33,172 nucleotides of DNA, taken from Candidatus Omnitrophota bacterium (GTDB taxonomy: Bacteria; Omnitrophota; Omnitrophia; Omnitrophales; JAQTRP01). The stretch covers positions 1 through 33,172 of the forward strand of contig JAQTRP010000007.1 in the NCBI GenBank assembly GCA_028711765.1. The letters are read 5' to 3'. The notes beneath the pieces were generated by a model that was given only the letters and a program-made list of their open reading frames with translations, was not told the DNA's origin and did no database searches. Made by a program: the position numbers and the translations under genes. Shown here one piece after another: positions 11-19,783 of this stretch; position 1 is the stretch's first letter, and the number at the start of each line of letters is the position of its first letter.

Positions 11-859
11 GTGAGAGATGTGAACAACGGCATTCCAACCCAAATCGATGTTATTTACCGTCTGCCAAGCGCCAATATGAATAAGTTAGCCAGCAAGCGG
101 GTTGACTGGCACACTGGCACACCGACTCACTGGACTATGGGACAGTCGTTGGGGGAGGGAGATTCAGTTATAAGTTCTAAGTTATTAGTTGTAAGTAAAC
201 CATTGCAGAATGCGCAACTTAAAACTTATAACTTACAACTTAAAACTGTTTTAGCAAACATCCGCTCGGCCAAGACCGAAATAGTGGAGATTGTAACGAG
301 TGATTCGCTGGCTAATATTTCGCCCGCGGAACTTGATCTTATTCTCTCGAACGAGCATAACAAAGTCGAGGTTGTCTGGACCCCGCACCACAAGGGTGCG
401 GGGCGAGCTACGAACGATAGTTCAGCCCGTGAAGCTTATTTGAAGGAGCTCGGGCTTTATGATATTTTTGTAAAGCATGGCCGTATTCCTTCGATGGGAT
501 TGGGCAGAAATGCGAACCGTTTCGGGGCAGGCGAGGATGGGCCCATAAGTCAGGCGATCTCTTATTACGCAAAGAGGGTAGAGGACCCGCGGAATATTAC
601 CGTAATTACAAAGGCGGACTTCCTGCCGTTCGATTATCTCTACACAGCCAAACCGAGCGCCAATGTGATGCGCGGCGATGTTAAGCACGCCCTCATCCTC
701 GGCCATTATCTTGCCCAGCTTGCAGGCAGGCTCGAGTATGATATCTTTAACGTCTTCCACCTCGAAGGCGGCAGGTTTGTGGCAAGTCCCATCGCCGAGT
801 TCGTCGAGTTTATAGTGGGCCGCACGCGTGAGTTCGAGCGGATGAACGTTGCCGCGTAG
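11..859 (+). CDS. Unrecognised protein, probably 5'-truncated by the window edge
   Basis: I do not recognise this family. The frame is open to the left edge (positions 2-10 are sense codons) and there is no convincing ribosome binding site before the GTG at 11, so the true start probably lies outside the window. The part after about residue 85 looks like an ordinary soluble alpha/beta protein with normal codon use for the window (VEVVWTPHHKGAGRATNDSS, then KADFLPFDYLY and HLEGGRFVASPIAEFVEF near the end). There is no signal peptide or membrane segment. The oddity is the first third: residues about 26-41 and 52-79 are encoded by DNA that matches intergenic repeat families found elsewhere in the window (see 85-133 and 165-248). 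Either the repeats inserted in frame, or this part is degenerate and the functional protein is shorter. No function is proposed. Confidence 0.55.
   Translation: MRDVNNGIPTQIDVIYRLPSANMNKLASKRVDWHTGTPTHWTMGQSLGEGDSVISSKLLVVSKPLQNAQLKTYNLQLKTVLANIRSAKTEIVEIVTSDSLANISPAELDLILSNEHNKVEVVWTPHHKGAGRATNDSSAREAYLKELGLYDIFVKHGRIPSMGLGRNANRFGAGEDGPISQAISYYAKRVEDPRNITVITKADFLPFDYLYTAKPSANVMRGDVKHALILGHYLAQLAGRLEYDIFNVFHLEGGRFVASPIAEFVEFIVGRTREFERMNVAA
85..133. repeat. TTAGCC/ACTGGC-word repeat inside the first ORF (family I)
   Basis: This segment resembles the intergenic element at 19729-19783. Both run GTTAGCCAG, five variable bases, GGGTT(A/G)AC, then repeated (A/C)TGGC words and end in GGCACACCG(A/G)CT. 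Here it lies inside an open frame and would encode LASKRVDWHTGTPTHW. Confidence 0.5.
165..248. repeat. AAGTTATAAG-word inverted repeat inside the first ORF (family B, copy 1)
   Basis: The left arm (165-196) is built from CAGTTATAAGTT, CTAAGTTATTAG and TTGTAAGT words. The right arm (214-248) is the reverse complement, ending ACTTACAACTTAAAACTG. About 17 nt separate them. The same words form intergenic inverted repeats at 12357-12471 and 18107-18279. Here the element is read through in frame as a stretch rich in K, L, S, T, V and N. Confidence 0.75.
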
Positions 860-9178: not shown

Positions 9179-10471
9179 ATGACTAAATATCAGGCCATAA
9201 AAGGGATGTCGGACATACTGCCGGAGGAGTCTCAGGTTTGGCAGCGGCTTGAGGAGGTAACCCGAAGTTTCTTCAGGACAAACGGTTACGAAGAAATCCG
9301 TACTCCCGTAGTTGAGGTGACCGAGCTTTTCCAGCGTTCTATTGGCGAGGCCTCCGATATAGTCCATAAGGAGATGTACACCTTTAAGGATCGCGGCGAC
9401 CGGTCTATGACCTTAAGGCCAGAGATGACGGCTTCGGTGGCGCGCGCGGTTATCGAGAATAACCTTATCCGCGAGGCAAAGCCGCTCTACCTTTATTACA
9501 TCGGTCCTATGTTCCGCGCCGAGCGGCCCCAGGCGGGGCGGCGGCGCCAGTTCCACCAGGTAGGGATCGAATCGATCAATACACCTTCGCCTTTCTCCGA
9601 TGCCGAAGCGATCGCATTGCTCGCGCGTTATCTTCGCGTTGTCGGCGTCGAGAGTTTTAAAATTAAGATAAACACCCTCGGATGCCCAAAGGATCAAGCT
9701 GAATATCGCGAAACGCTCAAGGCGTATTTCTCGAAAGAAAGCGCCGCTCTGTGCGAAGACTGCAAGTACAGGCTTGAAAAAAATGTCCTCCGTATATTCG
9801 ATTGTAAGAATGAATCCTGTCATAAAATTATAGACAACGCGCCGCCGATGAAACCATGCGGAACCTGCGGAAGCGATTTCGATACGATTCGCGAACTTTT
9901 GAAATCCGTCTTTAACGTTTTTTACGAGGTAGACCGCAAGCTTGTCCGCGGCCTTGACTATTACACCGGATGTGTTTTCGAGGCGACCTCAGCCGGCCTA
10001 GGCGCCAAGGACGCGGTCGCGGCAGGCGGGAGATACGATAACCTGATTAAGGAAATGGGCGGTGCCGATTTGCCTGCGACCGGTTTTGCGATCGGAATCG
10101 AGCGTCTTCTTGAATCGATGAAGGCCGATAGTTCTCCGCTTCTTGTAGAGCCGCGGCAGAAGAGAATTTACGTGGCGCTCGCCGGCGTAGGTTTGGATGC
10201 GATAAAACGTTTTAGCAAGGTCCTCGGGGGATTCAATTCCGCTTTGTGTCTACTTAGAGAAAAGGGCCATGAGGTATTTTTCCATTTTCGGCCGGATGTT
10301 TCTCTGAAGTCCCAGCTCAGGGAGGCCGACAAGTGGGGCGCCCGCGCGGTTATAATTTTGGGCGAAGACGAATTAACAAAGGGCGTTATGACCCTGAAGG
10401 ATTTTGAGTCGAAGGAAGAGAAGAAAGACATCGCGATAAGCGAGTTGGTAAGCATTTTTCGCTGGGATTAA
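9179..10471 (+). CDS. hisS: Histidyl-tRNA synthetase
   Basis: Charges tRNA-His in the cytoplasm. At 430 residues it has the usual bacterial length. Class II motifs appear in order: motif 1 region KGMSDILP and TPVVEVTELFQRSIGE, motif 2 YYIGPMFRAERPQAGRRRQFHQVG, the HisRS signature LVRGLDYYTG with R257, and motif 3 ATGFAIGIERLL. A CxxC...C...C cluster (CEDCKYRLEKNVLRIFDCK, then CGTCG) in the central insertion resembles the one seen in many bacterial HisRS. The C-terminal anticodon domain (RIYVALAG... HFRPDVSLKSQLREADKWGA) is complete. The start has a GAGGA site six bases upstream. A repeat-filled 129-bp gap separates it from aspS. Confidence 0.97.
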   Translation: MTKYQAIKGMSDILPEESQVWQRLEEVTRSFFRTNGYEEIRTPVVEVTELFQRSIGEASDIVHKEMYTFKDRGDRSMTLRPEMTASVARAVIENNLIREAKPLYLYYIGPMFRAERPQAGRRRQFHQVGIESINTPSPFSDAEAIALLARYLRVVGVESFKIKINTLGCPKDQAEYRETLKAYFSKESAALCEDCKYRLEKNVLRIFDCKNESCHKIIDNAPPMKPCGTCGSDFDTIRELLKSVFNVFYEVDRKLVRGLDYYTGCVFEATSAGLGAKDAVAAGGRYDNLIKEMGGADLPATGFAIGIERLLESMKADSSPLLVEPRQKRIYVALAGVGLDAIKRFSKVLGGFNSALCLLREKGHEVFFHFRPDVSLKSQLREADKWGARAVIILGEDELTKGVMTLKDFESKEEKKDIAISELVSIFRWD

Positions 10472-10600: not shown

Positions 10601-12361
10601 ATGTTGCGGACTAACACCTGCGGCGAACTAAGAAAAACCGATATCGGAAAGACCGTCACGCTCTGCGGATGGATTGACACGCGGCGCGACCACGGCGGCC
10701 TTATATTCACGGACTTAAGAGACAGATGGGGCGTAACCCAGCTTGTCTTTAATCCCGAGAGAAACAGCGAAATCCACGAGAAGGCGGAGAAGATCAGGAC
10801 GGAGTACGTCGTGCGCGTCCAGGGGAAGGTCGAGGCGCGTCCTGCCGGCACGGCGAACCCGAAGCTTCCGACGGGGGAGGTCGAAATCCTCGTCGACCAC
10901 TTTGACGTCCTCAATTCGTCGCCGACGCCGCCTTTTGAGATTTCCGAGAATGCCGACGTCTCGGAAGATATACGGCTCAAGTACCGTTTCCTCGATATCA
11001 GGCGGCCGTCGATGCTGAGGAATTTGACTCAGCGCTACCGCATAACGAGAATCGCCCGCGAATACTTTGACGGCCTCGGCTTTCTCGAGATAGAGACGCC
11101 GTTCCTCACAAAGAGTACCCCTGAGGGCTCACGCGATTTTCTCGTTCCCTCAAGGCTTAACCCCGGCACTTTTTATGCCCTGCCGCAGTCGCCGCAGCTT
11201 TTCAAACAGATCCTTATGGTTGCCGGCATAGACCGCTATTTCCAGATTGTCCGCTGTTTCCGCGACGAAGACCTAAGGGCCGACCGCCAGCCGGAACACA
11301 CCCAGATAGACGTCGAGATGTCGTTTGTCGAAGAAAACGATGTTATGTCCATTATGGAAGGCCTCCTCGCGCGGGTCCTCCGCGAAGTGCGCGGCGTCGA
11401 GGTAAAGCCGCCGTTTCGCCGTATCAGTTATCATGACGCGATGAACCAGTACGGCTCGGACAAGCCCGATCTGAGGTTCGATCTTAAAATCCGCGATTAT
11501 TCGGACGCGCTGCGCGGCTCGGGCTTTAACGCTTTTGAGGAAGTCCTGAAATCCGGCGGCGTCGTGAAAGGGGTTTGTGTTCCCGGCGGCTCGCAATTTT
11601 CGAGGAAGGATATCGACGACCTTACTAAAGTGGCAAACAGCGCGGGCGCAAAAGGCCTCGCGTGGATGAAAGTGAAAGACGGCGGCGAAGTTGATTCGCC
11701 GATTAAGAAATTTTTTGACAAGTCTATTCTTGATAAAGTCGTGAGTGAAAGCGGTGCTAAGTCAGGAGATCTTTTGCTTGCCGTCGCGGACGAATGGCAC
11801 ACTGCCTGCGTCGCGCTCGGCGTCTTGAGGCTCGAGCTCGCTCGCCGGTTAAAACTCGCGGATAAGGAAAAGATCGAGCTTTGCTGGGTCGTTGATTTTC
11901 CGCTTTTCGATTATGATACCGAGGAGAAACGCCTCGTCGCGATGCACCATCCTTTCACGTCTCCCAAACCGGAAGACATTCCTCTTTTCGAAAAAGAGCC
12001 GCTCAAGGTGAGGGCGCGCGCTTATGACATTGTTCTCAACGGAGAGGAAATCGGAGGGGGGAGTATCCGTATCCATCAGCGGGAAGTACAGGAGCTGATG
12101 TTTAAGACTTTGGGTATCGGCAAGGAGGAGGCCGAGCAGAAGTTCGGATTTCTCCTGAGCGCTCTCGTTTTCGGCGCGCCGCCGCACGGCGGCATCGCCA
12201 TCGGACTCGACCGGCTTACGGCCATGCTCATGGGGCTGGATTCTATACGCGACACAATCGCGTTCCCGAAGACTCAAAAAGGCGTCTGCCCGATGACGGA
12301 GGCCCCCTCAAATGTCTCGGCGAAACAGTTGAAAGAGCTGCACATACAAACAAAGTTGTAA
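10601..12361 (+). CDS. aspS: Aspartyl-tRNA synthetase, probably non-discriminating (Asp/Asn)
   Basis: Class II synthetase of 586 residues, bacterial type: N-terminal OB anticodon domain, catalytic core interrupted by a GAD-like insertion (about residues 290-420), and C-terminal motif 3 ([15 protein letters not shown]). Motif 2 region [20 protein letters not shown] and the flipping-loop region STPEGSRDF are intact. In the anticodon domain it has H31 (RRDHGG) and G83 (RPAGTAN). Those are the residues of non-discriminating AspRS such as that of Pseudomonas aeruginosa; strictly Asp-specific enzymes have Leu and Lys-like residues there. It may therefore also aspartylate tRNA-Asn, which would need GatCAB. 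The ATG start follows GGGTTAACAC, a weak ribosome site. Confidence 0.95.
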
Positions 12362-12471
12362 GTTTTAAGTTGTAAGTTATAAGTAAAATCGCAAAGAAAA
12401 AAATTGCAAAAATCAAACGTTCTTTTGCTTACTGCTTAAACTTACAACTTATAACCTACAACTTATAACTG
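12357..12471. repeat. AAGTTATAAG-word inverted repeat (family B, copy 2)
   Basis: The left arm (12357-12389: TTGTAAGTTTTAAGTTG, TAAGTTATAAGT) starts on the aspS stop codon. The right arm (12424-12471) is its complement (CTTACAACTTATAACC, TACAACTTATAACTGG) and ends 7 nt before the phoH start codon. The spacer is A-rich. phoH therefore has no room for a conventional ribosome site outside the repeat. Confidence 0.85.
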
Positions 12472-18101: not shown

Positions 18102-18160
18102 AAAAGCAGCTGTAAGCTTTAAGTTGTAAGCTATAAGTAAAGACAAATCTCAGGAATAAA

Positions 18161-18188
18161 AGCGGGTTGCAAAACAACCCGCTTTTTT
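18161..18188 (+). terminator. Strong intrinsic terminator after the 66-residue gene
   Basis: AGCGGGTTG (18161-18169) pairs perfectly with CAACCCGCT (18175-18183) around a CAAAA loop, followed by a run of T. A-rich sequence precedes it. Confidence 0.9.
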
Positions 18189-18224
18189 GCTTTTTAGGGA
18201 TTTGTTTTTATTTATAGCTTAAGG

Positions 18225-18244
18225 CCTGCCTGACGGCAGCCAGG
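18225..18244. repeat. CCTGCCTGCCGG palindrome, degenerate copy (family D, copy 3)
   Basis: CCTGCCTGACGGCAGCCAGG interrupts the right arm of the family B repeat. Other copies are at 19666, 19709, 23538 and 32640. Confidence 0.7.
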
Positions 18245-18307
18245 CTTACAGCTTATAGCTGATAACTTACAGCTGACTTAAAACTGCTTTAATAATTGCT
18301 CACTGCG

Positions 18308-19728: not shown

Positions 19729-19783
19729 GGTTAGCCAGTTAGTGGGTTAACCGGCTAACAGGCTAACTGGCACACCGGCTTAC
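19686..19783. repeat. TTAGCC-word inverted repeat (family I) split by a palindrome
   Basis: The left arm (19686-19708 and 19729-19752) consists of GTTAGC, GTGAGCCGGTGAGC and GGTTAGCCAGTTAG words. The right arm (19753-19783) is the complement, GGCTAACAGGCTAACTGGC then ACACCGGCTTAC. It fills the dapL-folK gap. Confidence 0.75.

Follow-up and report, generated by a model that had tools for sequence, protein, structure and literature searches.

How do repeats that otherwise lie between genes come to be read in frame within a coding sequence? The question is raised by the first open reading frame of the window, the whole 33,172-nt stretch of Candidatus Omnitrophota DNA analyzed here, in which two repeat families are embedded. 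A preliminary description had likened these elements to the palindromic elements of Rickettsia, and had considered both that they supply new peptide segments and that they mark a decaying 5′ part of the gene. Our analysis indicates that the two repeats probably lie in a spacer between units toward the 3′ end of a giant gene, that its units are joined at conserved junctions which are putative sites of cleavage, and that spacers of this kind, having only to be free of stop codons, take up repeats.

The Reading Frame at the Contig End

The window comprises contig C72 in its entirety, one of 145 contigs in a genome of 1.91 Mb that is 92% complete. The reading frame (2–859, + strand) is open from base 2 to a stop codon at 857–859 and has no start codon in the window. 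Since base 1 of the window is the end of C72, the GTG at position 11 is not the start, and the frame represents the last 285 codons, with the stop, of a longer gene. What had been described as a normal-looking protein is therefore cut by the contig end and is only the 3′ end of a giant gene, paralogues of which close giant frames on C47 and C112. Along the + strand, residues 1–27 (RIGVRDVNNGIPTQIDVIYRLPSANMN; 2–82), which we infer to be the end of a preceding unit, are followed by a TTAGCC/ACTGGC-family repeat read in frame as residues 28–44 (85–133), the junction peptide GQSLG at residues 47–51 (140–154), the AAGTTATAAG inverted repeat, also in frame (165–248), and the giant protein's C-terminal domain (248–856), whose last residues are VAA. 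The junction thus lies between the two repeats, and the inverted repeat has a GxSLG peptide on one side only, its downstream side being directly followed by the domain.

The C-terminal domain is 31–32% identical to the end of the C47 frame and related to that of C112; a search for it across the order returned just three copies, all in this genome. Pfam and NCBIfam searches of the window ORF gave no matches, and a scan of its protein against the genome contigs gave no relatives. An AlphaFold model of the domain built from two sequences had a pLDDT of 51, and its Foldseek matches were meaningless. Elsewhere in the window, a 19-nt inverted repeat (ACTTGCCCCGTTGGAGACA), its arms separated by 93 nt, lies at 1131–1261, directly after a tRNA-Lys gene (1059–1132), and an intergenic palindrome (AAAGGGGTCAGGGTCATTT) with arms 13 nt apart is found at 1301–1351.

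The Repeats Are Read as Coding Sequence

The AAGTTATAAG repeat has two pairs of arms, 166–183/216–233 (94% complementary) and 180–196/231–247 (88%), and its folding was strongly favored over that of shuffled sequences (z = -5.87; 0 of 200 shuffles equally stable). BLAST found 69 matches to this family across the genome, and 28 of the 37 copies that were placed are intergenic, with 7 in giant frames and 2 in doubtful ORFs, in keeping with the earlier statement that the families otherwise occur between genes. Intergenic copies available for comparison within the window include two at 12361–12471 (12361–12384 and 12435–12471) and two at 18115–18291 (18115–18138 and 18249–18291). The TTAGCC/ACTGGC family is looser: in the DNA examined, nhmmer located it at 19 sites within giant frames and at 17 outside them, including an intergenic copy at 19730–19782 (E = 0.0024). 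Membership of the segment at 85–133 is the weaker of the two assignments, its best non-self match having E = 3e-4 only.

Six giant-frame copies of AAGTTATAAG (one each on C72, C31, and C49, and three on C71) share a single register (..QLTTYNLQL..) and are free of stop codons; outside the giants, a stop occurs in that register in 56 of 84 ungapped alignments. The segment at 145–246 is 96% identical over 102 nt to C31:4633–4734 (- strand), where the copy lies between GSSLG and GASLG, in frame, inside an open frame of 10,472 codons. Because of this in-frame copy, the stop-free shared register, and the paralogous C-terminal domain that ends a 2,678-codon frame on C47 and is preceded there by a GxSLG linker, we regard the in-frame repeats as coding. 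Both of them are translated and add new peptide segments, in much the way known from Rickettsia palindromic elements. The intact frame, the near-identical copy on C31, and the C47 paralogue, which also follows a GxSLG linker, lend no support to decay of the 5′ part, and a true start after position 248, which would make the repeats upstream DNA, is excluded as far as homology reaches by the C31 copy and the C47 frame.

Giant Frames and Their Domains

Nine contigs of this genome carry parts of giant frames, 31,053 codons in total. The frames on C31 and C71 (7,997 codons) exceed 20 kb each, and the ends of C100 and C112, which overlap by 126 nt, form a single frame. The N-terminus is kept in two pieces, those on C31 and C71, with a hydrophobic, signal-like segment and a shared N-terminal domain. 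Pfam domains in the giant frames include HEAT repeats, radical SAM, glycosyltransferase 2, histidine-kinase ATPases, receivers, sigma region 4, malic enzyme, Fis-type HTH, DnaJ, GNAT, protein kinase, CMP kinase, epimerase, PP2C, FHA, and DUF1152, many of which resemble intracellular enzymes and regulators. The possibility that a giant frame is the sole source of an essential enzyme was rejected, the CMP kinase there being a second, divergent copy of an ordinary one encoded on C13. Within C31, residues 6132–6691 and 9980–10324 contain several repeats of one module (IWQRATKKAKLRMVNLLAKA.., closing in a part like sigma region 4), whose similarity is still visible in the DNA. A helix-like tail with the residues AA stands at all four giant-frame ends in this genome (C47, C72, C101, and C112). 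Among the 21 complete ORFs of relatives that bear the motif, 10 close in the same way and several more in SA or MA, so that the tail may be a C-terminal signal.

Junction Peptides Under Selection

The peptide GxSLG occurs 104 times in the 31,053 residues of the giant frames. Shuffles gave 1.14 occurrences, and other ORFs, with 72,668 residues, contained 4. The variable position is mostly A, S, R, or K, often with S before the motif and E after it. None of the 104 occurrences falls inside a Pfam domain, where 10.4 would be expected. Selection was assessed on in-frame sites within two mismatches of the GxSLG DNA consensus, irrespective of whether the peptide itself was present. Such sites numbered 73 in frame and 1 and 0 in the other two frames, and changes at GxSLG sites were synonymous in 70 cases and non-synonymous in 6 (possible changes, 13:23), which therefore indicates selection on the peptide. 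The TCG codon makes up 62% at the motif vs. 21%, and because motif codons are biased in this way, the abundance of GxSLG is due in part to DNA copying. Site-specific DNA recombination was rejected as the cause of motif conservation, because most changes are synonymous and each residue is encoded by several different codons.

Enrichment of GxSLG codons was found in this genome (31 to 0 in the control) and in G006, a member of another family (11 to 0), and at a comparable level in no other of 384 genomes of the phylum. In the giant frames of G006 (C89 and C33), the peptide DWLAR recurs just upstream of GASLG junctions, in 8 copies. In an unbiased peptide count, [GA]xSLG emerged from families f1, f4, and f7, whereas many f5 genomes yielded RSExR, the most enriched peptide in several other genomes. 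Changes at RSExR were synonymous in 100 cases and non-synonymous in 19 (possible changes, 10:26), so that this peptide, too, is under selection. An AspS tree places this genome with f4 (99/96) and f7 in a neighboring clade; a strict single origin of GxSLG was rejected, the label needing two changes on this tree.

GxSLG and RSExR may be either processing sites or hinges, with spacers that would tolerate any stop-free DNA. Cutting by a putative protease appears to be the likeliest reason why a peptide should be conserved at some 100 sites. Its chief rival is an uncut giant in which GxSLG and RSExR are hinge or docking peptides and the repeats merely lengthen flexible linkers. Residues near the motifs are indeed more often polar (64% vs. 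56%) and less often hydrophobic (26% vs. 34%), and intact giants are the view taken in the current literature (PMC10066038). A flexible linker, however, need not keep a set sequence, whereas this peptide shows strong purifying selection and differs between related families in the manner of a recognition sequence. These objections bear on the hinge and leave room for a docking peptide; on balance, we consider an uncut protein less likely than a cut one.

Repeats Are Concentrated in Short Spacers

Neighboring GxSLG peptides are separated either by 73 residues or fewer (25 cases) or by 110 or more (70 cases). With the two classes taken in this way from the data themselves, 21 of 25 short spacers and 3 of 70 long units are repeat-derived. 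Repeats shared with non-giant DNA, represented in these comparisons by about 320 kb that was picked partly for matching the repeats, cover 30% of spacers vs. 0.02% of units, and 14 of 15 shared-repeat segments lie at most 180 nt from a motif (random placement, 5.7; maximum 11 in 200 trials). The repeats are thus concentrated in spacers bounded by a selected peptide and kept out of domains and nearly all ordinary genes. In RSExR genomes, which serve as an independent replicate, repeats were found in 6 of 23 short spacers and in none of 97 long units; the [GA]xSLG rows of the same comparison of relatives include three spacers from this genome, via locus L065, and are not independent. One relative (G014) has, between RSESR and RSELR, a palindrome whose arms are 16 nt long and which bears no relation to the repeats of the window. 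A short spacer between two RSExR junctions in another (L105, in G007) encodes the peptide ..RHSEAA..EILRFAQDDE, which is presumably a translated intergenic repeat.

We propose that the giant protein would be a chain of units that fold separately and are linked through a conserved peptide at each junction, GxSLG in this genome and RSExR in related families, and that spacer DNA beside a junction, above all between close paired junctions, would have freedom from stop codons as its sole constraint. Palindromic repeats whose other copies are restricted to intergenic DNA could enter and persist in spacers because nothing more is required there. If a protease cuts at the junctions, the spacers would be discarded as short peptides, and doubled junctions would release the repeat-coded peptide. 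Against this reading, just about one quarter of all junctions are doubled, and the inverted repeat of the window has GxSLG on one side only.

As to the origin of this arrangement, separate genes may have been joined, in which case the repeats would be old intergenic remains rather than later insertions. The same repeat families are found in spacers and in intergenic DNA, and the units look like ordinary proteins, as expected of such fusions. However, the same junction-plus-repeat segment sits between unrelated domains (window and C31, 96%) and also in tandem (C31 1707–1821). This suggests that spacers were copied after the giant gene existed, and whole-spacer copying has thus occurred. We therefore find an origin from fused genes rather doubtful, while noting that it would fit either function, cut or uncut. 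Target-site duplication found little support as the origin of doubled junctions, as the flanking junction DNA of short spacers is alike at 10.9 of 15 positions, barely above the 9.7 of random pairs. That an assembly error at a repeat joined unrelated DNA is very improbable: the genome is a MAG of 145 contigs and a contig end cuts the ORF, but four sites distinguish the window copy from that on C31, many other contigs and other genomes show the same pattern of spacers, and the 126-nt overlap of C100 and C112 suggests that k-mers longer than the 102-nt shared stretch were used. Least probable of all is a non-coding or decaying 5′ part with the repeats upstream of the true start, for which the mostly intergenic location of the families might speak, as the frame is continuous from the contig end, six giant copies keep one register, and the in-frame C31 copy refutes it unless the C31 frame, too, is untranslated.

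A Candidate Processing Domain

Each of the 47 genomes of the order carries the N-terminal domain of the giants, which usually belongs to a long frame; the longest, with 35,113 codons on contig C37 of G018, is a single open frame, parts of which read as N. The domain has no Pfam family of its own, its members giving weak matches to ChaN, Ere, DUF5694, and TraB. Its model has a pLDDT of 90, and the best Foldseek match is the erythromycin esterase EreC (E = 0.1, probability 0.77), with others including 2rad and HopBA1. His15 and Glu43 are invariant and 28 residues apart, and the same spacing separates His85 and Glu113 of Bcr135 and His3902 and Glu3930 of RRSP (PMC6254334). The domain may accordingly be a putative hydrolase or peptidase of the Ere/TIKI superfamily, and that it might be what cuts the junctions is a guess. 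A bolder form of our proposal, which we put forward tentatively and with considerable doubt, is that the giants are polyproteins cut at clade-specific GxSLG or RSExR sites, perhaps by this domain, and that doubled sites excise a spacer peptide. Selfish intergenic DNA would then be tolerated in coding DNA because its product leaves the protein as the product of an intron leaves the RNA, an intron-like arrangement at the level of protein.

Comparison With Known Systems

The likeness to Rickettsia palindromic elements that had been proposed for this locus holds in part. Those elements are about 150 bp long and are inserted in unrelated, ordinary metabolic genes (PMC10969869). Both systems have short palindromic repeats that also occur between genes and are translated in frame, but here ordinary genes are spared (28 of 37 copies being intergenic, 7 in giants, and 2 in doubtful ORFs) and the repeats stand beside the junction peptides of giant frames. 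Common descent with the Rickettsia families is unlikely given that the host is a member of the Omnitrophota. MITE/REP elements are likewise small, palindromic, multi-copy, and mostly intergenic (PMC10969869), as are the repeats described here; in the comparison with MITEs, the junction DNA on the two sides of a short spacer scored 10.9 of 15 vs. 9.7 in random pairs.

Giant ORFs are themselves known from the Omnitrophota, and the available text of the published account describes ORFs beyond 20 kb with signal peptides, few annotated domains, and reported adhesin-like or polysaccharide-degrading roles (PMC10066038). The frames described here belong to the same phylum and share the length of more than 20 kb (C31 and C71) and the signal-like N-terminus, with an N-terminal domain common to all 47 genomes of the order; unlike those, they contain many domains that resemble intracellular enzymes and regulators, and the junction peptide, the repeat-bearing spacer, and processing are absent from the account as far as its available text goes. 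Giants of the MARTX type are large secreted chains from which different domains are released by proteolysis (PMC6254334), and the giants of this genome resemble them as multi-domain giant chains, an analogy that implies no homology. As in a self-processing polyprotein, a conserved peptide is present between units. Giant ORFs are of an already known kind; of the junction peptides and the rule that repeats sit in spacers we found no report in the literature searched, a body that does not extend to bioRxiv preprints, where there is major giant-gene work.

The post-transcriptional integrity of bacterial giant proteins was described as unclear in a 2025 paper (PMC12057145). Our results suggest a giant protein that is a string of units made of ordinary domains, possibly cut apart after translation, and the approximately 100 conserved junctions, together with the version found in related families, give exact sites at which whole and cut giants can be told apart. 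They also offer a clean test case, set up by nature, of where palindromic DNA of a selfish kind can survive within coding sequence.
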